Assembly: GCF_002979475.1 (NCBI RefSeq)
Contig: NZ_PCOY01000003.1
Coordinates: 62,001 to 126,000 of the forward strand
DNA from: Microbacterium sp. MYb62
GTDB lineage: Bacteria > Actinomycetota > Actinomycetes > Actinomycetales > Microbacteriaceae
Direction of reading: 5' to 3'
Length of the DNA: 64,000 nucleotides
Positions 49,600 to 62,777 of this stretch are shown piece by piece. Positions within the stretch are counted from its first letter, which is position 1, and every line of letters begins with the position of its first letter. The translations under genes and the position numbers were made by a program. The notes below the pieces were generated by a model. It did no database searches, was not told where the DNA came from, and saw nothing but the letters and a program-made list of their open reading frames with translations.

Positions 49600-51126
49600 A
49601 TGACTTCCGTCGAGGATGCCCTGAGCATCACTCGTACGGCATTCGTGCCGGTGGCGGCTCCGCGAGCCACCAAGTCGGTGACGCGCACGGTTGTCACGCC
49701 GCGCGCATCGGCGACCTTGGAGAGGCGCCGGCAGTGGGAGCGCCGCTATCGGATGCGGCTGCGGATCACGGATGCGGCTGTCATCCTGTTCGCCGTCGGT
49801 CTGACGGCAGCGATCCAGCTGGTCACCGGTGTCTCCGGGCTCGAGGTCCTGCGCGACGGCATCCCCCTCGCCGCGCTCTGGTACCTCATGCTCAGCGCGC
49901 TGCACACGCGGGACGCCGCGTTGTTCCGCGCGAGCGCCACCGAGTACCGCGGCGTGGTCCACGCCAGCGGGCTCGCTTTCGGGGTCATCGCCATCGTGGC
50001 GGTGCTGCTCGCATGGGAGTCGATGCAACTGGTGCTGCTGCTGGGGCTGCCACTCGGTGTGCTGACGCTGCTCGTGACGAGGTGGCTGTGGCGCCATTGG
50101 CTGCAGAAGCAGCGCTCACAAGGGAGGTTCGCCTCCCGCACTCTCGTCGTCGGCAATCGGGACGACGTGGAGTATGTGGTGCGCACGCTGCACCCGATCG
50201 GTGCGTCCGGCTACCAGGTGGTCGGCGCGACGCTGCTCGACGGCAACGCGCGCGACATCGAGATCGGCGACACGAGGTTCCCAGTTCTGGGGAACGTGAA
50301 CTCCGTGTCGTCGATCGCGGCCGAGGTCGGCGCCGACACGATCATCGTGGCGAGCCGTCCCGAGGGAGAGCCGGAGTTCGTGAAGCAGTTGAGCTGGCAG
50401 CTCGAGGGAACCGCTGCCGAGCTCGTGCTCTCCAGCCGTCTCACCGATGTCGCCGGCCCCCGCATCTCCTTCGCCCCCGTCGAGGGCCTGCCGCTCATCC
50501 AGGTGCAGATCCCGACCTATGAAGGCGGACAGCACCTGCTCAAGCGCGCGCTCGATATCGCGGTCGCCACGCTGGCGTTGATCCCGATCGCCTTGCTGGC
50601 ACCGGCGCTGGCGCTGCTCATCAAGCTCGACTCGCGCGGGCCGGTCTTCTTCTTCCAGGAGCGTGTCGGCCGCGACGGCCGACGCTTCAAGATGGTCAAG
50701 TTCCGCTCGATGAAGACGGATGCCGAGCAGCAGCTCGCCGCGCTAAAGGCACAGAACGAGGGCGCCGGCCTCCTCTTCAAGATGAAGGACGACCCGCGGG
50801 TGACCCGCATCGGCCGAGTGCTGCGCAAGCTCTCGCTCGATGAGCTGCCGCAGTTCTGGAACGTCCTGATCGGCGACATGAGCGTCGTCGGCCCGCGCCC
50901 GCCGCTGCCCAGCGAAGTCACCGCATACGACGGCACAGTCTTCCGCCGCCTCTACATCAAGCCCGGTATCACGGGCCTGTGGCAGGTCTCCGGACGCAGT
51001 GATCTCTCCTGGGACGAGAGCGTGCGCCTCGACCTGCGGTACGTCGAGAACTGGTCAGTGATGAACGATCTGCAGATCATGTGGCGCACCGCCAAGGTCA
51101 TGGTGCAGCCCAGCGGGGCATACTGA
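49600..51126 (+). CDS. Exopolysaccharide polyprenyl glycosylphosphotransferase (priming enzyme)
   Basis: A 508-residue membrane enzyme of the WbaP/EpsE type that transfers a sugar phosphate from a nucleotide sugar to undecaprenyl phosphate, starting a repeat unit. Four N-terminal membrane segments and a Rossmann-like domain (VVGNRDDVEYVV) precede a fifth helix (~300-325) and the catalytic domain: FKMVKFRSMKTDAE, LDELPQFWNVLIGDMSVVGP and YIKPGITGLWQVSGRS. It begins the operon with a GT2 transferase 4 bp downstream. The sugar is not predictable. Confidence 0.95.
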   Translation: MTSVEDALSITRTAFVPVAAPRATKSVTRTVVTPRASATLERRRQWERRYRMRLRITDAAVILFAVGLTAAIQLVTGVSGLEVLRDGIPLAALWYLMLSALHTRDAALFRASATEYRGVVHASGLAFGVIAIVAVLLAWESMQLVLLLGLPLGVLTLLVTRWLWRHWLQKQRSQGRFASRTLVVGNRDDVEYVVRTLHPIGASGYQVVGATLLDGNARDIEIGDTRFPVLGNVNSVSSIAAEVGADTIIVASRPEGEPEFVKQLSWQLEGTAAELVLSSRLTDVAGPRISFAPVEGLPLIQVQIPTYEGGQHLLKRALDIAVATLALIPIALLAPALALLIKLDSRGPVFFFQERVGRDGRRFKMVKFRSMKTDAEQQLAALKAQNEGAGLLFKMKDDPRVTRIGRVLRKLSLDELPQFWNVLIGDMSVVGPRPPLPSEVTAYDGTVFRRLYIKPGITGLWQVSGRSDLSWDESVRLDLRYVENWSVMNDLQIMWRTAKVMVQPSGAY

Positions 51127-51130
51127 ATCC

Positions 51131-52066
51131 ATGACCACAGCGTCGCCTCGCGACGAGGACCGATCCGTCCTCGTCGCCGTCACGACCTTCCGCCGCACTG
51201 AGCTCCTCTCTCCGCTCGTCGCAGCCATCCGCGCGCACGCCGGCGACAGCGGCAGAAACATGCGCATCGCGCTGGTCGACAACGACCCGATGCGATCCGC
51301 AGAGCAGACGGCCACCTCGCTGGGCGTCGACTACGTCTCGGAGCCGACCCCGGGGATCGCAGCGGCTCGTCAAGCCGCCCTCGACGCGGCAACACCGGGC
51401 GAGCTCGTGGCGATGGTCGATGACGACGTGCTGCCCCAGGAGGGCTGGCTGGACGCCCTCCTGTCCATCTGGGCTGCGTCGGACCATCCGGCGGTCGTCA
51501 TGGGCTACGTGGAGTATGTCTGGCCTGAAGGCACCGATCCCTGGATCGTCGCCGGCGGGTTCATGCGGCGACGACGCCGACGCACCGGCCAGCAGCTCGA
51601 TGCCCTGGCCACAGGCAACGTCCTCATCGATGCGACTCAGGTCGATGGACTCGGTGTGCGCTTCGACACCCGCCTCGGCCTTGCCGGCGGTGAGGACATG
51701 CTCTTCGGGCGTTCCCTTCTCGCTGCGGGTGCCTCCATCGTGGCTTCCGCAGATTCCGTCGTACGCGATGAGATCCCGGTGGAGCGAACCTCCCGGGAGT
51801 TCGTGCGTCGACGCACCATCTCGCAGGGCCAGATGCGCACACGGCTGCTCACACGCGACGGTTCCCCCGTTCGACGATTCGCTCTCCGCGTCGCGCACCT
51901 CGCAGGCGGTCTGCTCCGCCTCGTCGTCTTCTCTTCACGGGGGCTCCTGGCCCGCTGGCGCGGTGACATGACGGCGGAGGCGGTGCTGCGTCGACGCACC
52001 TGGTTCGCTCAGGGCCGCATCCTGGGAGCCGTCGGTCGTATCACGCCCGAGTACGCGCGGAACTGA
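51131..52066 (+). CDS. Glycosyltransferase family 2 protein
   Basis: A 311-residue GT-A transferase. VLVAVTTFRRTELLSPLV opens the nucleotide-binding fold, EPTPGIAAARQAAL follows, and VAMVDDDVLPQEGWL holds the metal-binding DxD. The C-terminal half is basic with a possible amphipathic or membrane stretch (LAGGLLRLVVFSSRGL), suggesting membrane association. It lies 4 bp after the priming transferase and probably adds the second sugar of the repeat unit. A strong terminator follows. Confidence 0.93.
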   Translation: MTTASPRDEDRSVLVAVTTFRRTELLSPLVAAIRAHAGDSGRNMRIALVDNDPMRSAEQTATSLGVDYVSEPTPGIAAARQAALDAATPGELVAMVDDDVLPQEGWLDALLSIWAASDHPAVVMGYVEYVWPEGTDPWIVAGGFMRRRRRRTGQQLDALATGNVLIDATQVDGLGVRFDTRLGLAGGEDMLFGRSLLAAGASIVASADSVVRDEIPVERTSREFVRRRTISQGQMRTRLLTRDGSPVRRFALRVAHLAGGLLRLVVFSSRGLLARWRGDMTAEAVLRRRTWFAQGRILGAVGRITPEYARN

Positions 52067-52126: not shown

Positions 52127-55100
52127 CTACTGAGGAACCACCACGGCGAAGCGCTCGAACGACAACTTCGTCGCGGCGTTCGTCGATGCCGAACTGATCG
52201 ACGTCTTGATGCCGACGCCACCTGCGGCCTGCATCGCGGCCGTCGCGTCAGTGCCCTGGAGCTGCCAGTCGGCGGGCTCTGCCTGCCCCTCGACCCACAC
52301 CTTGGCGGCGACGGTCGTCGGGTTGGTCCCGGTGACTGCCAGACGAGCGTGGAGCACCTGGCCCGGCGCGTAGGTCGTCGGCACGACGTAGCTGTTCCCG
52401 ATGGCTGTCTCATCGCGGAGGATGTAGAGACGGATCACGCCGGCCGGCTCCAACCGCACCCGAGCAGAGTACGTCGACGTTCCGACCGTCCGACCGTTGA
52501 GCGTGATGCTTGCGGTGCCACCGGCCGAAGCGACATCCGACGAGAACGTCGCGTCGAGGATGGTACTCGTGCCCGACACCGCCAGTCGCGCCTCACGGGT
52601 CTGCGACGGTGCGAGCGTCACGACGCCCTTCCCTGCTGCAGTGCTGAACGCGGCATTGCCGCCGGACAGCGTCCATGCTCCGCCGAGATCAGCTGTGCCC
52701 CATCCACCGGTCGTCGCACGGTCGAACTCATCCGTCGCGAGCGGGACCGGGCCCGTGGGATCCGGCGGGTCGACCACCGGAGCGGTGACCGTCACCGGGT
52801 TCGTCACGGCGTGCGTCGCCCCGTCGTCATCGGTCACTGTCAGAGTGACGTTGTACGTCCCGGACGCCGCGTAGGCGTGCGATGCCGTCGCGCCCGACGC
52901 TGTCGCCCCGTCGCCGAAGTTCCACGCGTACGACGCGATCGTTCCGTCCGCGTCCGTGGAGCCGCCCGCGTCGACGTTCGCCGTGAGTCCGTTCGTCGTG
53001 GAGGCGAACGCGGCCGTCGGCGCCTGGTTCTGCGGTGGCGCCACCACGGCACCGGTGACGACCTTGTAGTCGTCCACGGAGATGACCGACGACACCGTCG
53101 ACACCGAGCTGATCGCCATCTTGAGACCGACGGAGCCGGCGGCCTGCAACGCGGCCGTGGAATCGGTCGCCTGCAACTGCGGGTTGGCCGGTTCCGTGGT
53201 CCCCGCGCGCCAGACCTTGAGCGAAAGCGTCGTCGGCGAGGTGCCGCGGACCGACAGGACGACCGAGAGCTTCTCGCCCGCGACATAGTTACCGGGGATC
53301 ACGACGCTGTTGCCGAGCGCTGTCTCGTTGCGCAGCAGGTAGAGCCGGATCGCGCCGTTGGCCTCGATCTTGACGCGACCGGAGTAGACGTCGCTGCCGA
53401 TCTGACGGCCGTTGACCGTCAGGTTGAAGGCTCCGCCGCTGGTGGCGTTGCTCGAGCCGATCGTCATCGATGTGATCGTCTCCGAGCTCGAGACGCCCGC
53501 GAGACGGGCTTCACGAGTCGCGGCAGGGGCGAGTGCGAACTTGCCCACACCGTCGCCGACCGAGAAGGCCGCAGCGCCCCCGGACGTCGTCCACGCCCCA
53601 CCCACATCTGCGGTTCCCCAGGAAGAGGAAGCCGTCCGCTCGAAGGCGTCCCGGGCGATCACGTCTTCGGTGGCTGCCGGCGCGACGGCGACCGAAGCCG
53701 TCGTCTGGTGCGTCGCACCATCGTCGTCGGTGACCGTCAGCGTGACGGTGTAGGTCCCCGCTGTCGCATAGGTGTGAGTCGCTGTCGCACCGGTGGCGGT
53801 GGCGCCGTCACCGAAGTTCCAGGCGTGCGCCGTCACCGTGCCGTCACTGTCCGTCGATCCGCTGCCGTCCACCGAGATGGACATGCCGTCGGCGCCGCGC
53901 ACGACGTTGGCCACGGCCTTGGGCGGCGCGTTCTGCGCCTCCACCGTGATCGCCTTCGTCGTGGTGGCGGATCCGCCGCGATCGTCGGTCACCGTCAGCG
54001 AGACCTCGTAGATGCCCGAGGCCGCGTAGGCGTGTTCGGCCGTGGCGCCGGTGGCTGCGCCGCCGTCGCCGAAGTTCCACGAGTACCCGGCGATCGTGCC
54101 GTCGCTGTCGGTGCTGGTGGATCCGTCGAACGCCACCGAGAGGAATTGCACCGCCTCGGTGAAGGCCGCCGTCGGCAGCACGTTCGGGTTGCGGGCGATC
54201 ACGTCATGAGTGACCGTCGACGTGAGCCCGCCCGCGTCCTGCACCGTGAGCGTCACCGTGTAGGTGCCCGCGGAGGCGTAGGCATGCGTCGGAGCGACTC
54301 CGGTGGCGGTCTGACCGTCGCCGAAGTTCCACGAGTACTGCGCGATCGGACCCTCGGGATCGCTCGACGTCGATGCGTCGAAAGCGACCGAGAGATCGGT
54401 CGGCGTCGCGGTGAACTGCGCCGTCGGGAGCTGGTTCAGCTGCCCCGTCTTGCCCAGCTGGAAGTGCTGCAGCACCTGGCTCGAGGTGAGCGGTGCCGTG
54501 TAGACGGCCGCCTCATCGATCGTGCCGACCCAGAACGGGTCGCCCTCCCAGGTCGTGTCCCCACCCACACGCCAGTATCCGGCGTAGTCGTCGGATGCCG
54601 CCTGCGTGTTCGATGCCACCTGGACGCCGTCGACGAACAGCTGCATGCCGCTGGCCGACTGCTGTCCCACGACATGGTGCCATTGGCCGTCGCGGTAGGT
54701 ACCCGGCGCGGTGAGAACGTAGGAACCACCGCTGTAGACGCCGAACTTGAGCTGGCCGGACGGATCCATGTAGATGTGCCGGTCGTAGTTCGCGCTCGCA
54801 TTGGCGGTGTTGGCGTTGCTGTTGCCGAAGCCGATCAGCTTTCCGCCTCCGCTCGAGGTGGTCTTGAACCATGTCTCGATCGAATAGACGTCGGGCGACG
54901 GGTACTGCCGCGCGCTGACGACGGTCTGACGGTTGTTCCAGCTCGAGAAGAGCTTCGACGACGTGAACCGGATGGCTGGGTTGCTCACTCCGGACAGCGC
55001 GCCGGACTGGTTGCGTTGGATCGCCGCGGATCCCGCCGTCTGGTACGTGCCGTTGCTGCCATCGCGTCCGGAGTCCCTGGCGACCGTTCCGCTCGTCTCC

Positions 55101-57580
55101 CCGAGTCGCCAGTACAGCGTGGGGTCGAGCTCGTAGACCGACTTGCCGTAGGCGTCGGCCGGAGCCGCGGGCAGGGACGAGGTCCGCCCGGAGGAGACCC
55201 AGTGCGCGTCGACCGCGTCACGGGTGAGAGCGGTGCTGTAGACAGCCACGTCCGCGATCCGTGCGTTGAGGTAGTTGGACGTTCCCGCCGACGGCCATCC
55301 GCTCTGGGAGTCGCCGCCGATCCGCCAATATCCCGAGTAGCTCTGGCCTGCGGTGGTGTCGGTGCGCGAGCCGATGCGCACGCCGTCGACATAGAGCACC
55401 ATCCCCGACGCGCTCATCGTGCCAACCACATGGTGCCAGTTGCCGTCGTTGAGGCCTGCACTGCTGGTGATCGTGCGCGCCGAGCCCGGGTACACGCCGA
55501 ACGTGACCTGTCCGGTGTTGCTCATGTAGAGATGCCGGTCGTAGTTGCCGGAGAGTCCCGTGGCGGTGTTGCCGAAGCCGACGATCTTGCCGCCGCGCGT
55601 GCTCGTCGTCTGGAACCAGGCCTCGACCGAGAACTCGTTCGGGGCGGCTTCGGAGACGGAGCTGGACGACGTGCCGTTGGTGCCGTTGAAGGCGGTGGAG
55701 GACGAGGTCTGGCCGACGGCCTGACCCGCTTGACCCCGCGTGGTGCCACCGGCCAGAGTCAGGTCGTTGCCCGCGACCCAGTCGGTCGCAGACGTGCCGG
55801 ACGGCTCGTTCAGCGGCCAGTAGTATTTCGGCTCGGACGCGAGGATCGCCTCGTTGTAGGCGTTCGACGTGCCGGCGGCAGCGATCGTGACCGGCGTCCA
55901 GTCAGACGTCGTGGAGTTGCCGTTCGGGTCGGTGACCTTCACGCGATACTCATAGCTCTGACCCGCCGTCACCGCCGTGTCCGAGAAGGTGAGCCGCGGA
56001 CGCACCCAATAGGTGGAATCGGCGGTGGTCGTGTGGATCGGCTGCGCGAGATCACGACGGAAGACCTCGTAGGTCAGTCGTGCGTTGTCTGCGTCGTAGT
56101 TGGCCGACCAGGCGACGCGCGCCTGCCCCGCACGGAACGACTGCGCGCTGATCTGGTAGGCGCCACCCTTGATGGTCGGACCGACCTTGTTCGGCGCGGT
56201 GCCCGGCTTCGCGAAGCGCACGAGCCCTTGCTGGGCCGAGCCGCTCACCGCGGTGAACTCCCCGCCGTAGACGAGGTAGTCGCCGCCGCCGGTGACGGAC
56301 CACGCCGCCTGGCTCATGCCGGAGACCGTCCCCGGCTGCCACGTGGGGTACCAGTGCAGCAGTCGCGCCGCCGGATTTCCCGTGAAGCTGCGGTAGCCGT
56401 AGATGTCCGGCGTGATGGTGCGGTCCGACGGGTTCTTGTCGAAGGCGAGCGAGAAGTTGAAGTTCCACGGGTCGAGCTGCGGGAACTCCCCGATGTTCCC
56501 GCAGTAGTGCGAGTGCGCCGCGGTGTAGAGCACGCCGCCGGTCGGATACACCGAGTAGGTGTCGCCGTGGCAGTCTTCCATCCACACCATCGAGCCGTCG
56601 CTCCAGTTCGCGCGGAACGAGCCCTCGAAGTCGTCCTCCGTCTTCGAGCCGCCGAAGTCGTAGCCGCTGCCGTAGACGCTGTCGCCGTCGGATGCGAGCG
56701 AGTAGATGGAGGCGCCCGTGCCTCCGTTGCGGATGACGCTGTTGATCGCCCACGGCAGGCTCGCGCCGGTGCCGGCGTCGAGCGCAGCCATGCCGCGCCC
56801 GGGGTTCGTGGAACCGTTGGTCGACGTGAACGACCCCGCGATGACGACCTTCGATGCGTCGGGGGACACGACGACCGAGCGGACGCCGTAGCCGCCCGCG
56901 AGCACCGGGTTGAAGTCGAGCACGGCACCGGTCGACGCGCTCAGGGCGGCGACTCCGGTGCGGGCGGTGTTGTTGACGTTCGAGAACTCACCGGTGACGT
57001 ACACGGTGGTGTCGGTGGCGACGATGCCCTGCACGATCGTGTTGGTTCCGGGGGTCCAGTTCGCGATCAGCTGCCCCGTTGCGGTGTTGAAGGCCGCGAG
57101 CCGATACCGGTTCTGCCCGTCGACCGACGTGAAACCGCCGCCGATGTAGAGTCGCGAGCCGTCCGGCGAGACGGCGGCCGCGAGCACGCGACCGTTGACC
57201 TGCGGGTTGAAGGAGGCGTCGAGCACACCTGTGGCGATGTCGTAGGCCAGCAGGTTCGACCGCGGCGTCTCGTTGGTCCCGGCTGCAGCGCCCGCCGGGC
57301 GCGCGCTCGTGAACTGGCCGCCGGCGTAGACCTTGCTGCCCCCGACCGCCTGAGCCCAGACGATGCCGTTGATCTGCGTGGTCGGAAGTGGATCCGCGCT
57401 CACCGTCGCCGGCGACGCCGGATCGGTCGGCGCGGTGTCCGCCTGCGCTGCTGGTGCCGTGATGGCCGCTCCCAGGAGCGTGGCCACCAGAACGGCGACG
57501 ACTCCCATGGCGATGCGACGGTACGGACGTGCGCGCGACTCTTCGTCGCGTGCGATTGCATCGAGTCGTTGGACTCGCAT
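52127..57580 (-). CDS. Giant secreted protein: propeller-like, FN3, two LamG, four PKD and two C-terminal modules
   Basis: A 1,817-residue exported protein. Signal peptide ~1-47 (LVATLLGAAI, cleavage after AQA). Residues ~60-460 are a WD/beta-propeller-like repeat region (IYIGGGFTSVDGQNRYRL, VYVTGEFSNV). Then FN3 (~465-565), two LamG/concanavalin jelly rolls (~573-795 and ~811-1041, each with DGNWHHVVG or DGQWHHVVGQ), three PKD domains (~1048-1300, WNFGDG), a ~215-residue module, a fourth PKD (~1516-1600) and a second copy of that module (~1610-1817). No LPxTG or membrane anchor is visible. Probably an adhesin or polysaccharide-matrix protein, from its domains and the flanking EPS genes. GGAGG lies 4 nt before the ATG. 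Confidence 0.88.
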   Translation of the reverse strand: MRVQRLDAIARDEESRARPYRRIAMGVVAVLVATLLGAAITAPAAQADTAPTDPASPATVSADPLPTTQINGIVWAQAVGGSKVYAGGQFTSARPAGAAAGTNETPRSNLLAYDIATGVLDASFNPQVNGRVLAAAVSPDGSRLYIGGGFTSVDGQNRYRLAAFNTATGQLIANWTPGTNTIVQGIVATDTTVYVTGEFSNVNNTARTGVAALSASTGAVLDFNPVLAGGYGVRSVVVSPDASKVVIAGSFTSTNGSTNPGRGMAALDAGTGASLPWAINSVIRNGGTGASIYSLASDGDSVYGSGYDFGGSKTEDDFEGSFRANWSDGSMVWMEDCHGDTYSVYPTGGVLYTAAHSHYCGNIGEFPQLDPWNFNFSLAFDKNPSDRTITPDIYGYRSFTGNPAARLLHWYPTWQPGTVSGMSQAAWSVTGGGDYLVYGGEFTAVSGSAQQGLVRFAKPGTAPNKVGPTIKGGAYQISAQSFRAGQARVAWSANYDADNARLTYEVFRRDLAQPIHTTTADSTYWVRPRLTFSDTAVTAGQSYEYRVKVTDPNGNSTTSDWTPVTIAAAGTSNAYNEAILASEPKYYWPLNEPSGTSATDWVAGNDLTLAGGTTRGQAGQAVGQTSSSTAFNGTNGTSSSSVSEAAPNEFSVEAWFQTTSTRGGKIVGFGNTATGLSGNYDRHLYMSNTGQVTFGVYPGSARTITSSAGLNDGNWHHVVGTMSASGMVLYVDGVRIGSRTDTTAGQSYSGYWRIGGDSQSGWPSAGTSNYLNARIADVAVYSTALTRDAVDAHWVSSGRTSSLPAAPADAYGKSVYELDPTLYWRLGETSGTVARDSGRDGSNGTYQTAGSAAIQRNQSGALSGVSNPAIRFTSSKLFSSWNNRQTVVSARQYPSPDVYSIETWFKTTSSGGGKLIGFGNSNANTANASANYDRHIYMDPSGQLKFGVYSGGSYVLTAPGTYRDGQWHHVVGQQSASGMQLFVDGVQVASNTQAASDDYAGYWRVGGDTTWEGDPFWVGTIDEAAVYTAPLTSSQVLQHFQLGKTGQLNQLPTAQFTATPTDLSVAFDASTSSDPEGPIAQYSWNFGDGQTATGVAPTHAYASAGTYTVTLTVQDAGGLTSTVTHDVIARNPNVLPTAAFTEAVQFLSVAFDGSTSTDSDGTIAGYSWNFGDGGAATGATAEHAYAASGIYEVSLTVTDDRGGSATTTKAITVEAQNAPPKAVANVVRGADGMSISVDGSGSTDSDGTVTAHAWNFGDGATATGATATHTYATAGTYTVTLTVTDDDGATHQTTASVAVAPAATEDVIARDAFERTASSSWGTADVGGAWTTSGGAAAFSVGDGVGKFALAPAATREARLAGVSSSETITSMTIGSSNATSGGAFNLTVNGRQIGSDVYSGRVKIEANGAIRLYLLRNETALGNSVVIPGNYVAGEKLSVVLSVRGTSPTTLSLKVWRAGTTEPANPQLQATDSTAALQAAGSVGLKMAISSVSTVSSVISVDDYKVVTGAVVAPPQNQAPTAAFASTTNGLTANVDAGGSTDADGTIASYAWNFGDGATASGATASHAYAASGTYNVTLTVTDDDGATHAVTNPVTVTAPVVDPPDPTGPVPLATDEFDRATTGGWGTADLGGAWTLSGGNAAFSTAAGKGVVTLAPSQTREARLAVSGTSTILDATFSSDVASAGGTASITLNGRTVGTSTYSARVRLEPAGVIRLYILRDETAIGNSYVVPTTYAPGQVLHARLAVTGTNPTTVAAKVWVEGQAEPADWQLQGTDATAAMQAAGGVGIKTSISSASTNAATKLSFERFAVVVPQ

Positions 57581-57718
57581 GGCGCCTCCCCATAGGCACA
57601 TGCCGATATATCGGCGAATGATGGTTTCCCTCGCGTCCCCCAAAGACGCAACCGCGCTCAGACTAGCGCACGACACCCGCGTGGCGCTACCCGTACTCCC
57701 CGATCTGCGATAAAGGGG

Positions 57719-58738
57719 TCAGCGATCCGGGAGGAGGATCTCTGCGAGGTGCGCGCACATGATCGCCGTCGTGAACGACGTCACCACCGCCGCACGTCCG
57801 GCGGCGCCCATCGCGGCCGCACGATCGGGATCGTCGACGAGCGTCACGAGTCGACCCGCCAGCGCCTCGGCATCGCCGACGGGAACGAGATGGCCGGTCT
57901 CGCCCTCGACGACATATTGCGACATTCCCGGCGTATCCGTGTTGACCACCGGCCGCCCCGTCGCCGACGCCTCGAGCGTCACCGTCATCCCTGACACGTG
58001 GAGGTTCGGCCGGGTCGCGGTCGCCACGACGCTCGCCGTCGCGTACAGATCGCGCAGCTCGCGGTGACTCATCCGCTCCATGACCCGGACGCCTTCCGGA
58101 GCACCGGCGGCCGACGTCTGCACGACGATCTCGACCTCAGGGCGCTGGACCCGCACCAGCTCGAGCGCCCGGAACAGCGTCTGGGGGTCCCGATCCCGGT
58201 CATTGCCGATGCTCACGATCCGCGGCCGATCAGGGAACGTCCGCGGCGCGAAGAACTCGGCATCGACGCCGAAGGGCACCGCGGTGATGCGCGGGCCGTG
58301 CTCACCGAACAGCTCCTGCAGGGGTTCGACCTGTCCGCGGCTGAGCACCCACAGGTCCTCGGCGCCTCGAAGCACCTCGATCAGGCGCTCGGGAACGTGC
58401 CCGCGCGCGACCATGTCCGTCAGCCAGATCACGCCGGAGGCGAACCGCTGACGCGGAAGCGCCACCTGCATCCGGAACGCGGCGTTCTCGTCCCACGTGA
58501 AGCCCATGCCCTCGGCCCGCCGCGGGCCGAGTCCGGCGCGGGCTCGGAGACGCGACAGCCGTCCGGGAACAGGAAGGTCGAGCACGTCGACGCCGGCGAA
58601 CTCGCGGAGCCCGTCGAGGCCGTACTGCCACGCGCTGGGGACTTCGCCGGCGGCGTGCCGCTGCTCCCAGGCATCCACCGACTGCTCGGCAGGGAAACCC
58701 CACACGAGGGAGCGTTCGGGACCGGGGGCTGACGACAC
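57719..58738 (-). CDS. Glycosyltransferase family 4-type protein
   Basis: A 339-residue GT-B transferase. The C-terminal half has the GT4 pattern: VSIGNDRDRDPQTLFRALEL, MSHRELRDLYATASVVATAT, HVSGMTVTLEASATGRPVVN (the E-x7-E nucleotide-sugar site) and GETGHLVPVGDAEALAGRL. The N-terminal acceptor domain is less conserved. The GTG at 58738 follows TAGTCT by 6 nt. It is divergent from another transferase and lies 138 bp upstream of the giant secreted gene, on the same strand. Confidence 0.92.
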   Translation of the reverse strand: MSSAPGPERSLVWGFPAEQSVDAWEQRHAAGEVPSAWQYGLDGLREFAGVDVLDLPVPGRLSRLRARAGLGPRRAEGMGFTWDENAAFRMQVALPRQRFASGVIWLTDMVARGHVPERLIEVLRGAEDLWVLSRGQVEPLQELFGEHGPRITAVPFGVDAEFFAPRTFPDRPRIVSIGNDRDRDPQTLFRALELVRVQRPEVEIVVQTSAAGAPEGVRVMERMSHRELRDLYATASVVATATRPNLHVSGMTVTLEASATGRPVVNTDTPGMSQYVVEGETGHLVPVGDAEALAGRLVTLVDDPDRAAAMGAAGRAAVVTSFTTAIMCAHLAEILLPDR

Positions 58739-58790: not shown

Positions 58791-59978
58791 ATGCGCTCTC
58801 CACAGTCGCCCTCCTCGCCCTCGCTCCGCATCGCGCTGATCGGGACGCGCGGCATCCCGGCCGCATACGGCGGGTTCGAGACCGCCGTCGAAGAGGTCGG
58901 GCGCCGGCTCGTCGAACGCGGCCATCGCGTGCTCGTGTACGGCCGCGACGCGGGCACCAGCGGGGACGAGTACCTGGGCATGCGCCGGGTCACGCTCCCC
59001 GCCGTGCGACAGAAGGCGCTCGAGACCCTGAGCCACACCGCACTCTCGACGGCTCATGCCGTGACCAAGGCCAGACCGGACGCCGCGTTCGTGTTCAACG
59101 CCGCCAACTCGCCGTTCCTCCCCGTGCTCCGGGCTCGTCGGATCCCGGTCGCGCTGCACATGGACGGCCTCGAGTGGCGACGCTCGAAATGGGGCGGACG
59201 CGGCAAGGCGTACTACCGCTGGGCGGAGGAGTTCGGCGTTCGCACGGCCGACGCGATCATCGCCGACGCCCCCGGCATCTCCGACTACTACCGTCACCAG
59301 TTCGACGTCCCGAGCGAGCTGATCCGCTACGGAGCTCCGCTCCTCGACCAGGCTCCGGCCGACGGCATCCGCGCACTGGGCCTCGAGCCGGGCGGATACC
59401 ATCTCGTCGTCGCGCGGTTCGAACCCGAGAACCATGTCCGTGAGATCGTCGAGGGATATGCGGCGTCGTCAGCCACCAAACCGCTCGTGGTCGTCGGGTC
59501 CGCGCCTTATGCGGCGGAGTACACCGCCGCGATCGATGCGCTCGCCACCGCGGACGAGCGCATCCGGCTTCTCGGCGGAGTGTACGACCAGGACCTGCTC
59601 GACGCGCTCTACCATCACGCTTTCACCTATCTGCACGGCCACTCGGTCGGCGGGACGAATCCCTCGCTGCTGCGGGCGATGGGCGCCGGCACGGCGGTGA
59701 TCGCGTTCGACGTGACCTTCAACCGGGAGGTCCTCGACGAGCAGGGCTGGTACTTCGCCGATCCTGCCCTGGTGACGTCGGCGCTCGAAGCGACCGAATC
59801 CGACCCCCACGCCGTGGACGCGGTGGCTCGGACCCTCCGCTCCCGGGCGGCCGAGGCCTTCTCGTGGAACGACGTCGCGGACGCGTACGAGCAGTTGGCC
59901 CGTCGGATCGCGCAGGGGGAATCGATCCATGCCTCGGCACGCCGCTCGCGTCGGCTCGCGGAAGAGTGGCCGGGCTAG
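58791..59978 (+). CDS. DUF1972-type (rhamnosyltransferase-like) glycosyltransferase
   Basis: A 395-residue GT-B enzyme. The N-terminus LIGTRGIPAAYGGFETAVEE is the signature of the DUF1972 group, which includes rhamnosyltransferases; the C-terminal half has VVARFEPENHV and GHSVGGTNPSLLRAMGAGTA. It probably adds rhamnose or a related sugar to the lipid-linked repeat unit. Its stop shares the palindromic CTAG at 59975-59978 with the stop of the convergent flippase gene. Confidence 0.92.
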   Translation: MRSPQSPSSPSLRIALIGTRGIPAAYGGFETAVEEVGRRLVERGHRVLVYGRDAGTSGDEYLGMRRVTLPAVRQKALETLSHTALSTAHAVTKARPDAAFVFNAANSPFLPVLRARRIPVALHMDGLEWRRSKWGGRGKAYYRWAEEFGVRTADAIIADAPGISDYYRHQFDVPSELIRYGAPLLDQAPADGIRALGLEPGGYHLVVARFEPENHVREIVEGYAASSATKPLVVVGSAPYAAEYTAAIDALATADERIRLLGGVYDQDLLDALYHHAFTYLHGHSVGGTNPSLLRAMGAGTAVIAFDVTFNREVLDEQGWYFADPALVTSALEATESDPHAVDAVARTLRSRAAEAFSWNDVADAYEQLARRIAQGESIHASARRSRRLAEEWPG

Positions 59979-61309
59979 CTCGACTCGACGACCGAGGCCG
60001 GATCCTCCGCGCGCTCGGGTGCGAGAAGACGCTCGCGGTGCCGGTGGATGTAGATCACGTAGGGGATCACCTGGCACACGATCAGCGCGAATGCGACACC
60101 GAGCAGCGGCCCCACGATGCCGAGGATCGGCGTGAGGACGATCGACAGCACGATGCTGACTCCGGCCATCGCCAGCGTCGGGATCACCTGGAAGCGGATA
60201 CCCGGCTTGTCCATGATGAACATGCCGAGCGGATAGACCGCGGCAGTGAACATGATCATGCAGCCGAAGGAGAGGATCGTCGAGGTCCGCACCTCGAGTT
60301 CGCCCCGCGTGATGAACTCGAACAGCCAGGGCCCGATCAACCAGACGAAGAGCGTCGCCGCGGCGACCGCGCCTCCGAAGAGCAGCGAGAGCAGGTAGGG
60401 GCCGCGGCGGAGCTCACCCCGGTGCCGCCGTCGGGCGAACTGCGGCCACAGCGCCACACCGGCCGCCATGACCAGCCCGTTGAGGGCGAAGAAGACCTGC
60501 CCGGCCACCCCGTACTCGGCGACATCGGTCGGAGTCCCGTACTGCGCGAGCACGTAGCGCTGCGACCCGACCGCGATGGGATAGGTCACCATCTGCGCGA
60601 GCATCGGCCAGCCGACGTCCATGACCCGGACCCCGGGCACGCTGCGCCACCGGAGAAGCACCCGGAGGGCGTCCGGGATGAGCGGTGCGGTGGAGCGCGT
60701 CACGAGGAGGAATCCGATGACCGCCGTCAGCAGCGACGCGCCGTAGGAGGCGACCGCCAGGTAGGAATCGAAGTCGCGCCCGCCGAAGGTCAGCATGAGC
60801 CATACGCCGCCCATCGTCACGGGCGAGATGAGGCCCTGCACGAGGATCACGAGATGATTGCGTCGTTGGCCGAGCAGGATCCGGAACCACACGCCGAGCG
60901 TCACGGTCAGGCTGAACAGGGTGATGCACAGGAAGGCCGCGAGGGGGGCCCCCGGGATCGCCCCGGCGTCGCCGAACAGCGCACGCCATCCGCCTGTGAT
61001 CAGCAGCACGGTGTTGATCAGCATGAGGCCCGAGGCGAACAGGAGCAGGATGCGACCGACGGAGGTGACCTGCAGCCGCAGCTTCTTGTCGGTGCGCACG
61101 TCGTCGCTGGTCGCGACGGCGTTGACGAGCACCGCTCCGCTGCCGAGGTCCGTGAACGTCAGCAGCGACGGGATCGTGATGAGCAGGGTGTAGAGCGCAT
61201 AGTGCTCGATGTCGGTCTCACCGAGGATCATCCGCGTCGTGATCACACCGCAGACGAGGGAGATCACCATCGTCACGCCTCGCGCGCCGAGCGCCAGCAG
61301 AGAGTTCAT
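59975..61309 (-). CDS. Polysaccharide flippase (MOP/Wzx family)
   Basis: A 444-residue integral membrane protein with 12-14 predicted helices (LLALGARGVTMVISLVCGVI, VMDVGWPMLAQMVTYPIAVG, IVGPLLGVAFALIVCQVIPY). It matches lipopolysaccharide/O-antigen flippases that turn undecaprenyl-linked repeat units to the outer face. The ATG at 61309 lies 8 bp after the kinase stop, so the two are one operon. The C-terminal tail is charged and cytoplasmic. Confidence 0.92.
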   Translation of the reverse strand: MNSLLALGARGVTMVISLVCGVITTRMILGETDIEHYALYTLLITIPSLLTFTDLGSGAVLVNAVATSDDVRTDKKLRLQVTSVGRILLLFASGLMLINTVLLITGGWRALFGDAGAIPGAPLAAFLCITLFSLTVTLGVWFRILLGQRRNHLVILVQGLISPVTMGGVWLMLTFGGRDFDSYLAVASYGASLLTAVIGFLLVTRSTAPLIPDALRVLLRWRSVPGVRVMDVGWPMLAQMVTYPIAVGSQRYVLAQYGTPTDVAEYGVAGQVFFALNGLVMAAGVALWPQFARRRHRGELRRGPYLLSLLFGGAVAAATLFVWLIGPWLFEFITRGELEVRTSTILSFGCMIMFTAAVYPLGMFIMDKPGIRFQVIPTLAMAGVSIVLSIVLTPILGIVGPLLGVAFALIVCQVIPYVIYIHRHRERLLAPERAEDPASVVESS

Positions 61310-61317
61310 GAGAATGC

Positions 61318-62703
61318 CTAGCCGCGGACGTTCCGGCGCCCGAGACGCGGACGCAGCCCCTTGGAGCGCTCGTCCGTGTAATACGGGCTCTTCGCCGCAC
61401 CGCGGACCCCGTTCAGCACGATGCCGAGCACGGGCGTCCTCGTGGATTCGAGCGACGACAGCGCACGGGCGAGGTCGGACCCCTTCGTGCGGTTGGACCT
61501 CACCACGAAGAGCGTGCCGTCCGCCATGGTCGAGAGCCACAGGGCGTCGCTCACCGACAACACGGGCGCGGTGTCGATGATGACGTAGTCGTAGTTGTCG
61601 CGCGCTTCGTCCACCACCTTGTGGAGCTCGCCGCTGGAGAGCAGCTGCCCGGGGTTGGGCGGCTGCGCACCCGCGGTGAGGATGTCCAGTCCCGGACGCC
61701 CCCACTGCTGCACGGCGCCCGCCAGCTCGATGTCACCGATCAGCACGGTCGTGAGACCGACCGACCCCTCGAGTTGGGTGTACCGGGCGGTGCTGGGTCG
61801 CCGCAGATCCGCCTCGATGAAGAGGACGGAACGGCCGCCCTCGGCGAGCGTCAGAGCGAGTCCGAGCCCGACGGAGGACTTCCCCTCCTGCGCGGAACAC
61901 GAGGTGACGAGTATCACCCGACGACTCTTGTCCACGTCGACGAACTTGAGGCTGGCCGACACCTGGCGCATCGCCTCGGCGACGCGACCGTCCGGCTGCG
62001 AGCGGATGACACGGGCGAGCGTCTGGTTGTCCGCGGCCTCCGGGATCTCGCCGAGCAGAGCGATGTCGGTGATCTCCCCGAGCGCGCTCGCGCTGGCGAT
62101 GCGCGTGGCGAATCGCCGACGCAACACCGCGAAGACGACACCGGCGACGAGTCCCGCCGCAACACCGAGCGCGACGTTGTTCCGGGTGTTCGGGGCGATC
62201 GGCACTGTGGGTGTCCGCGCCGGCGAGATCGTCTCGATGCGCACCGCCGGCTCCCCGTCCGCACCGATCGGCGAGACGTTGCCGACGGCGACGGCGAGTT
62301 CGCTGGCGATCGCGTTCGCCGTCTTCTGCGCGCTCTCCCCGTTCGTGTCCGTGACGCCGATCTCGATCACGACGGTGTTCAACGGAACGTTCACATCGAC
62401 CCGTCGCGCGAGTCGGTTCGCCGTCTCGTCGAGACCGACCTCCTCGATGACGGGATCGAGGACGGTGGGCGAGACGACGAGAAGCGTGTAGGTCTGCACG
62501 AGGCTCTGCACGTAGTTCGACCCCTGCAGCAGCTCGGTCGTGCTCTCGCCGCGAGTCGGGATCACCATGACCTGCGCCTCTGCGCGGTACTCCGGGTCGA
62601 CGAACTGGGAGTAGCCGTACGCGGCTCCACCGCCGAGGAGCATGAGCACGATGATGACGACCCAGTTGCTCCTGAGCGACTGGAAGTAGTCCTGCAGTGT
62701 CAT
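61318..62703 (-). CDS. Chain-length determinant / tyrosine autokinase (Wzz-Wzc/CapB-like)
   Basis: A 461-residue fusion of a Wzz domain (helices at ~15-35 and ~180-205 around an extracellular coiled segment) and a cytoplasmic BY-kinase. The kinase has a P-loop variant VTSCSAQEGKSSVGLGLAL, Walker A' VLFIEADLRRPS and Walker B YDYVIIDTAPV. BY-kinases autophosphorylate C-terminal tyrosines; here only one Tyr pair (SPYYTDE) precedes a basic tail, fewer than in Gram-negative Wzc. It controls chain length and export, presumably opposed by the phosphatase encoded divergently. Confidence 0.93.
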   Translation of the reverse strand: MTLQDYFQSLRSNWVVIIVLMLLGGGAAYGYSQFVDPEYRAEAQVMVIPTRGESTTELLQGSNYVQSLVQTYTLLVVSPTVLDPVIEEVGLDETANRLARRVDVNVPLNTVVIEIGVTDTNGESAQKTANAIASELAVAVGNVSPIGADGEPAVRIETISPARTPTVPIAPNTRNNVALGVAAGLVAGVVFAVLRRRFATRIASASALGEITDIALLGEIPEAADNQTLARVIRSQPDGRVAEAMRQVSASLKFVDVDKSRRVILVTSCSAQEGKSSVGLGLALTLAEGGRSVLFIEADLRRPSTARYTQLEGSVGLTTVLIGDIELAGAVQQWGRPGLDILTAGAQPPNPGQLLSSGELHKVVDEARDNYDYVIIDTAPVLSVSDALWLSTMADGTLFVVRSNRTKGSDLARALSSLESTRTPVLGIVLNGVRGAAKSPYYTDERSKGLRPRLGRRNVRG

Positions 62704-62761
62704 GGTTCCCCGTCCCCCTCGGCGCGACCGCGCGATGTCTCGCGGTGCCTCGCGGCTCACC

Positions 62762-62777
62762 ATTATCGCCTATGTTG
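62762..62777. promoter_or_regulatory. Overlapping divergent -10 elements between kinase and phosphatase genes
   Basis: GATAAT lies on the minus strand (complement of 62762-62767) toward the kinase and TATGTT on the plus strand (62771-62776) toward the phosphatase. The two promoters share the same 117-bp gap and may be co-regulated. Confidence 0.4.

Follow-up and report, generated by a model that had tools for sequence, protein, structure and literature searches.

Matrix proteins that partner with an exopolysaccharide have been well worked out in Vibrio. As described for RbmC and Bap1, a propeller domain binds the polysaccharide and other domains bind surfaces, and the RbmC gene sits between the two polysaccharide clusters of Vibrio (PMC10102183). 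A second point of reference is provided by mycobacteriophage Douge, for which a carbohydrate-binding module is reported at residues 116-311 of the baseplate protein; binding to M. smegmatis and to fragments of mycobacterial glycans is described for this module and for the tip domain of the central fibre (PMC13033339).

The window analysed here, a stretch of 64,000 nucleotides from Microbacterium sp. MYb62, encodes a protein that resembles RbmC and Bap1 of Vibrio cholerae in being secreted and modular and in combining a beta-propeller with lectin-type domains. As with RbmC, the gene is found with a polysaccharide cluster, whose product the protein would here serve. The parts themselves appear to differ: the RbmC/Bap1 propeller is eight-bladed, whereas the present one models like seven-bladed propellers of the WD40 type, and the RbmC/Bap1 lectins are beta-prisms, whereas those of the Microbacterium protein are predicted to be concanavalin A (ConA)-like and are joined by LamG and PKD domains; a Pfam scan of the 1,817-residue protein returned no beta-prism family. 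On the features seen, the two systems would therefore be alike in how they work and not kin. Our preferred reading, for which we judge the case to be evenly poised, is that the protein is secreted into the matrix to serve the exopolysaccharide of the surrounding cluster, and that the two modules at its C-terminus are lectins with a ConA-like fold. Glycan binding by the modules is proposed from their predicted fold and their genomic context.

Domain composition and the surrounding cluster

The gene (52127-57580, minus strand) translates to 1,817 residues and then a stop, with an alternative in-frame GTG start upstream at 57676. Its N-terminal signal sequence (residues 1-48; 57437-57580) was assigned by eye, as was the cleavage site, and the most hydrophobic stretch of this region begins at residues 22-27. 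There follow, all on the minus strand, a beta-propeller (residues 53-468; 56177-57424), an FN3-like domain (residues 479-568; 55877-56146), two LamG domains (55181-55750 and 54449-55027), three PKD domains (53699-54421), module A (53060-53674), a fourth PKD domain that serves as a spacer between the modules (52802-53014) and module B (52142-52753). Local domain profiles thus give the string PROP-FN3-LAMG-LAMG-PKD-PKD-PKD-MOD-PKD-MOD, the same order that a preliminary description of this DNA had proposed for the 1,817-residue frame. In Pfam, the protein matches Laminin_G_3 twice and PKD_4 four times, modules A and B are unmatched, and the propeller yields weak Rax2 and DUF5122 matches, both near or below cut-offs. 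No Pfam FN3 model matched in the 1,817-residue protein, and the FN3 call is based on weak profile matches to solved structures (neogenin, E 0.011; DCC, E 0.073) together with the predicted model. The model of the propeller and FN3 domain has a pLDDT of 96.4, and the best structural matches of the propeller are WD40-type proteins, e.g., WDR5, plus a design titled 7-bladed (Z 31); Bap1 is absent among the propeller matches listed, an absence that does not exclude likeness.

The propeller also displays a (nearly) invariant D-C-H-G-D ... H-x-H-x-C pattern (positions 284-308 of alignment A3), and apart from the two cysteines of this pattern (residues 337 and 360) the protein has none; to judge from the pattern, the pair may form a disulfide adjoining a metal or active site.

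The preliminary description further held that the protein lacks a wall anchor and is flanked by polysaccharide genes, and both points agree with what was found. The Pfam scan of the 1,817-residue protein detected no anchor domain, and, in contrast to sortase-anchored surface proteins, the protein possesses neither a C-terminal LPXTG motif nor a hydrophobic C-terminal segment, ending instead a few residues past module B. Its only two sortase-like strings, at residues 1042 and 1747, are both located within domains. On one side of the gene, Pfam identifies an initiating sugar transferase (49600-51126, plus strand; Bac_transf, E 1.4e-68) and a family 2 glycosyltransferase (51131-52066, plus); on the other, a group 1 glycosyltransferase (57719-58738, minus), a DUF1972/group 1 glycosyltransferase (58791-59978, plus) and a Wzz/kinase-type chain-length protein (61318-62763, minus; Wzz and AAA_31), with a CDP-alcohol phosphatidyltransferase and a low-molecular-weight tyrosine phosphatase past the window end. 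Between the last two of these window genes lies a multi-pass membrane protein (59975-61321, minus) labelled by eye, without Pfam support, as a putative Wzx-like flippase. The polymerase was likewise labelled by eye, its weak Wzy_C match (E 0.0009) falling below the cut-off. As detailed below, this setting recurs across genera in comparison with control regions of the same genomes.

A genome search located a third copy of the module on the same contig (128481-129098), about 13 kb from modules A and B, past the window end and within the same cluster; it is 29% identical to module B. This copy is the N-terminal domain of a secreted protein of 844 residues (TTG start), in which it is followed by a proline-rich linker and then a right-handed beta-helix. 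That the cluster holds a further module copy, fused to a secreted beta-helix, is a new observation. The profile of the beta-helix matches solved structures of a xylosidase and of mannuronan C5-epimerases, and the domain has an invariant, active-site-like charged cluster (NN-E-F, PV-G-K, WFD-S, E-S, RR); because of these two features, a role for the beta-helix as a polymer-modifying enzyme is plausible. The companion gene occupies L004:6696-9227 on the minus strand.

Fold and family of the repeated module

The modules had been described as a beta-rich unit, probably a jelly roll, duplicated around a PKD domain. The duplication is evident from the end-to-end alignment of modules A and B at 53% identity, and the jelly roll was refined to a ConA-like lectin fold at high model confidence. 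A chance or low-complexity origin of the repeat was considered and ruled out by the E-value at which module B finds module A in the genome search (3.3e-58). A profile search, which the preliminary description had set as a check, returned no named Pfam or NCBIfam family for the module, whether non-carbohydrate or other: modules A and B match no Pfam family even at E 10, and NCBIfam contains none for the module. When 94 module copies were searched against Pfam at E 0.1, scattered weak matches to 29 families were obtained (best E 0.0009), and among the 25 families listed none was matched by more than six copies and Laminin_G_3 did not occur. The only sequence matches in the PDB, to a PH domain (E 0.78) and to TOM40 (E 0.066), were read as noise. 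The PHROG label 'phosphodiesterase' belongs to a whole phage family and hence assigns no function to the module.

An AlphaFold model of module A, built from the alignment of 94 module copies, has a mean pLDDT of 96.8 and a pTM of 0.91 and predicts a two-sheet, ConA-like lectin jelly roll. Legume lectins lead the Foldseek matches of this model (E 6e-7, TM-score about 0.5-0.6), and VIA-align gives Z 16-18 across its best 50 rows, the top of which (Z 17-18) are so close as to be tied: a chain of the mycobacteriophage Douge baseplate (8zdo_a, residues 109-310; Z 18.0), ERGIC-53 (Z 17.8), the Douge central fibre (Z 17.2), the alginate lyase Aly36B (Z 17.2) and CBM66 of Bacillus subtilis (Z 17.0), with the receptor-binding domain of TM4 gp23 at Z 16.5. 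In a viral structure library, the best match is a minor tail protein of Streptomyces phage KimJongPhill (E 2.9e-9, TMq 0.82). CBM66, a carbohydrate-binding module, has the lowest rmsd among the best 50 rows (2.3 over 155 residues); it resembles the module in fold, at 13% identity. Enzymes, too, can have a ConA-like fold, as can proteins without sugar-binding activity. The Douge baseplate module and fibre tip and TM4 gp23 belong to the same fold class and come from phages of Actinomycetota, yet their identity to the module is 10-15% and their rmsd is 4.5-4.9 for Douge and 2.8 for TM4; moreover, these domains are virion parts, whereas a cellular matrix protein is proposed here. To judge by residue ranges, the Douge chains matched by VIA-align are probably the glycan-binding domains described for that phage (PMC13033339).

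At the level of profiles, the module matches the LamG profile of the same loci in register (probability 69%, E 4.5e-5), whereas control profiles of the PKD, FN3, propeller and beta-helix domains reach a probability of 2% or less. The likeness is to Laminin_G_3 (PF13385), for which modules A and B nevertheless miss the Pfam gathering score. Because of the fold matches and this profile match, the module is best placed within the ConA-like/LamG superfamily, as a diverged lineage for which Pfam has no model. Further iteration of the module profile drifts into LamG domains, and module counts therefore refer to the second-round profile set (228 domain hits, 216 of them near full length); the tree is limited to 162 modules from the window, viral and named-genome loci. 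The most conserved positions are D13, R17, W23, G24, G29, R94, Y101 and W159. Module A departs from the family at position 169, where it has proline and 91% of copies have tryptophan, and at position 191, where it has alanine and 63% of copies have tyrosine.

Faster evolution of the module relative to its neighbours was considered and rejected; modules diverge about as much as the LamG and PKD domains, and there is therefore no arms-race signal. In 12 orthologue pairs, not all of them independent, the mean identity of the propeller exceeds that of the modules in 11 and ties with it in one, and the propeller is the single best-conserved domain type in nine. Because the propeller is the better conserved of the two, and because it is the polysaccharide-binding part in Vibrio, it may be what grips the polymer in place of the modules, a role that the preliminary description had not considered for it.

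Linkage to exopolysaccharide genes and distribution

Linkage was assessed in 20-kb regions around module genes in 20 genomes assembled in one or few contigs, with two control regions from each of the same genomes (n=40, at hand-picked round coordinates) and with 14 proteins of the MYb62 cluster as tblastn queries (E 1e-8). At least one cluster homologue was present in 16 of the 20 module regions vs 2 of the 40 controls (Fisher p 4e-9), and at least three were present in 15/20 vs 0/40. An initiating transferase or a Wzx-, Wzz- or Wzy-like protein was likewise found in 15 of 20 regions and in none of the 40 controls (Fisher p 3e-10); without the two labels given by eye (flippase and polymerase), core-gene hits remain in 14 of the 20. 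The regions with homologues are those of propeller-type proteins (16/17, the miss being L164), vs 0/3 for module proteins without a propeller. Across the wider named set, 46 of 67 loci have a cluster homologue, and at least three homologues accompany 32/52 propeller-type and 2/2 beta-helix-type loci vs 0/13 other loci. On the DNA available for them, the remaining 20 of the 52 propeller-type loci have fewer than three homologues and eight of these have none; among the eight, L062 and L082 are on short DNA and L109 on 17.8 kb, and L059, L063, L089, L103 and L115 are on about 20 kb. The linkage to exopolysaccharide genes is thus strong, albeit with exceptions, and it is a property of the propeller-type proteins rather than of the module itself. 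At one locus (L155, genome G034), two overlapping frames (1,326 and 922 residues) together encode the propeller protein, as would result from a frameshift or from a sequencing error.

The module is patchily distributed, given that at E 0.001 or better it was detected in 39 of 150 sampled genomes of the family, 59 of 297 of the order and 26 of 396 of the phylum. The 67 named loci include members of Microbacterium, Leifsonia, Clavibacter, Cellulomonas, Actinotalea, Geodermatophilus, Blastococcus, Modestobacter, Nocardioides, Phycicoccus, Tessaracoccus, Nakamurella and Actinomadura as well as some Chloroflexi bins, the nearest to MYb62 being those of M. algeriense (87%) and M. galbinum (82%). By the tree listing, the propeller-FN3-LamG-PKD-module design spans at least 10 actinobacterial families, and its recurrence in linkage with exopolysaccharide genes is also new. 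In a comparison by hand of the genome lists for the 150 family genomes, 37 had a strong propeller match (E 3e-145 or better) and 36 of these also had the module, the exception being G097, and the module genomes without a strong propeller were G011 (whose module match is itself weak), G021 and G063. Propeller-FN3 matches of any strength occur in 61 of the 150, many of them weak or single-repeat. Propeller proteins that lack the module also occur (four frames). In 68 of 70 propeller-module frames, no more than 15 residues follow the last module; L082, whose frame is cut by the contig end, and L098 depart from this.

In 10 of 41 multi-module proteins (10 genomes), the modules group solely within their own genome (SH-aLRT 94-100), a pattern that would fit repeated duplication or gene conversion, which are indistinguishable on this tree. 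The modules of the other 31, including the MYb62 protein, do not group in this way, and the split between its modules A and B is common to M. algeriense and M. galbinum (an eight-row clade, support 95). A single branch (support 97) sets the 14 beta-helix-linked modules apart from the rest of the tree.

Phage carriers, alternative ligands and wider meaning

The module is also present in Streptomyces phage tail proteins, again a new observation. Thirteen phage records match it, two phages twice (GenBank and RefSeq), and among these records six label the gene a minor tail protein, one a virion structural protein and five a hypothetical protein, with one unannotated; in the two records examined it lies directly past the tape-measure gene or one gene further. 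The module is also carried by 19 viral contigs; in 13 of them it lies close to the C-terminal end of its frame, and in the other six, two of which are cut by the contig end, it lies elsewhere. The Streptomyces phage protein family phrog_24476 matches module B (E 1.3e-17) and module A (E 1.9e-9) at its residues 827-1035, and among eight of the 19 viral module proteins scanned, phrog_24476 was found in all eight and phrog_5313 in seven; phrog_24476 consists of phage tail proteins whose remainder is unrelated to the propeller protein. In one phage tail protein (L014:2104-6708), Pfam CBM_4_9 scores above cut-off immediately before the module. Phage and bacterial modules are largely separate in the tree (15 phage rows, two changes), which gives no sign of strain-matched borrowing by phages. 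Ten other bacterial module proteins were scanned, and these include four with a metallophosphoesterase (L066, L153, L156 and L166), one with a polysaccharide deacetylase and three with a beta-helix (varying strength).

The phage carriers figure in the main rival to polysaccharide binding by the modules, in which the modules are a wall anchor on a cell-wall glycopolymer and the propeller/LamG end faces outward to hold either the exopolysaccharide or some other surface. The module is carried by tail proteins of phages, which have to locate glycans of the wall or surface; the modules are C-terminal and often repeated in a protein with no other anchor; and the metallophosphoesterase proteins are located outside the clusters, the regions of L153, L156 and L166 having zero cluster-gene homologues. 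We nonetheless regard wall anchoring as unlikely, given that the propeller-type genes are linked to exopolysaccharide genes and that the module is N-terminal in the beta-helix protein. Less likely again is that the protein binds a foreign glycan, i.e., a plant, fungal or other surface polysaccharide, and acts as an adhesin or a scaffold for scavenging, its gene being no more than a fellow traveller of surface-polysaccharide genes. Adhesins and degradative enzymes often contain LamG, FN3 and PKD domains, and a deacetylase-type protein carries the module, but the strong cluster linkage of the propeller type and the location in the same cluster of a companion with the same module make this reading improbable. 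Least probable of all is a structural or protein-binding module without lectin activity, for fold is no proof of function, yet phage tail proteins contain the module, it has carbohydrate-related domains as neighbours, and the solved structures closest to it in fold include several that bind glycans.

We therefore return to the matrix-protein reading. Beyond fold and linkage, it draws on the co-occurrence of propeller and module in the family genomes, the terminal position of the modules, the separate branch of beta-helix-linked copies and the kinds of domain found in other carriers. Counting against it are the conservation of the propeller, the ConA-like folds that bind no sugar, the departures of module A at positions 169 and 191, the propeller-type loci with few or no cluster homologues, the module proteins of other types that showed no linkage, and the small share (10 of 41) of multi-module proteins whose modules group by genome. 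Because the design recurs beside polysaccharide genes and phage tails carry the domain, the protein is a probable glue for the strain's own slime. The modules, spaced by PKD domains, would bind the strain's polysaccharide at two or more points; by means of the propeller and LamG domains at its opposite end, the protein would cross-link polymer chains or tie the polymer to the cell. The beta-helix protein, which may be an enzyme that modifies the polysaccharide, would be tethered to the polymer by the same module. The whole would constitute a multivalent lectin matrix protein working like RbmC and Bap1 of Vibrio.

The fold is already known; the lectin family and its partnership with a polysaccharide appear to be undescribed, and the open-licence literature yielded no description of this type of protein or of its link with actinobacterial polysaccharide clusters. 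More tentatively, at somewhat less than even confidence, we suggest that many actinobacterial families possess exopolysaccharide-dedicated matrix proteins of this undescribed kind, in which each strain's cluster has its own lectin, repeatedly duplicated and shared with a polymer-modifying beta-helix, and that Streptomyces phage tails use the same lectin family to find their hosts. By virtue of the phage link, the module is a lead for host recognition by Streptomyces phages. Additionally, the propeller-module protein could mark exopolysaccharide clusters that current pipelines miss. For example, a 2025 study is reported to have found no match to an exopolysaccharide operon in its Microbacterium oxydans isolate (PMC12246864). 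At the loci L091 and L093, from two other M. oxydans strains, the propeller-module protein is present and 11 of the 14 query cluster proteins were matched on about 20 kb. The authors of the Vibrio study raise the question of how general its double-sided-tape design may be (PMC10102183), and a counterpart assembled from other parts appears to be widespread in Actinomycetota.
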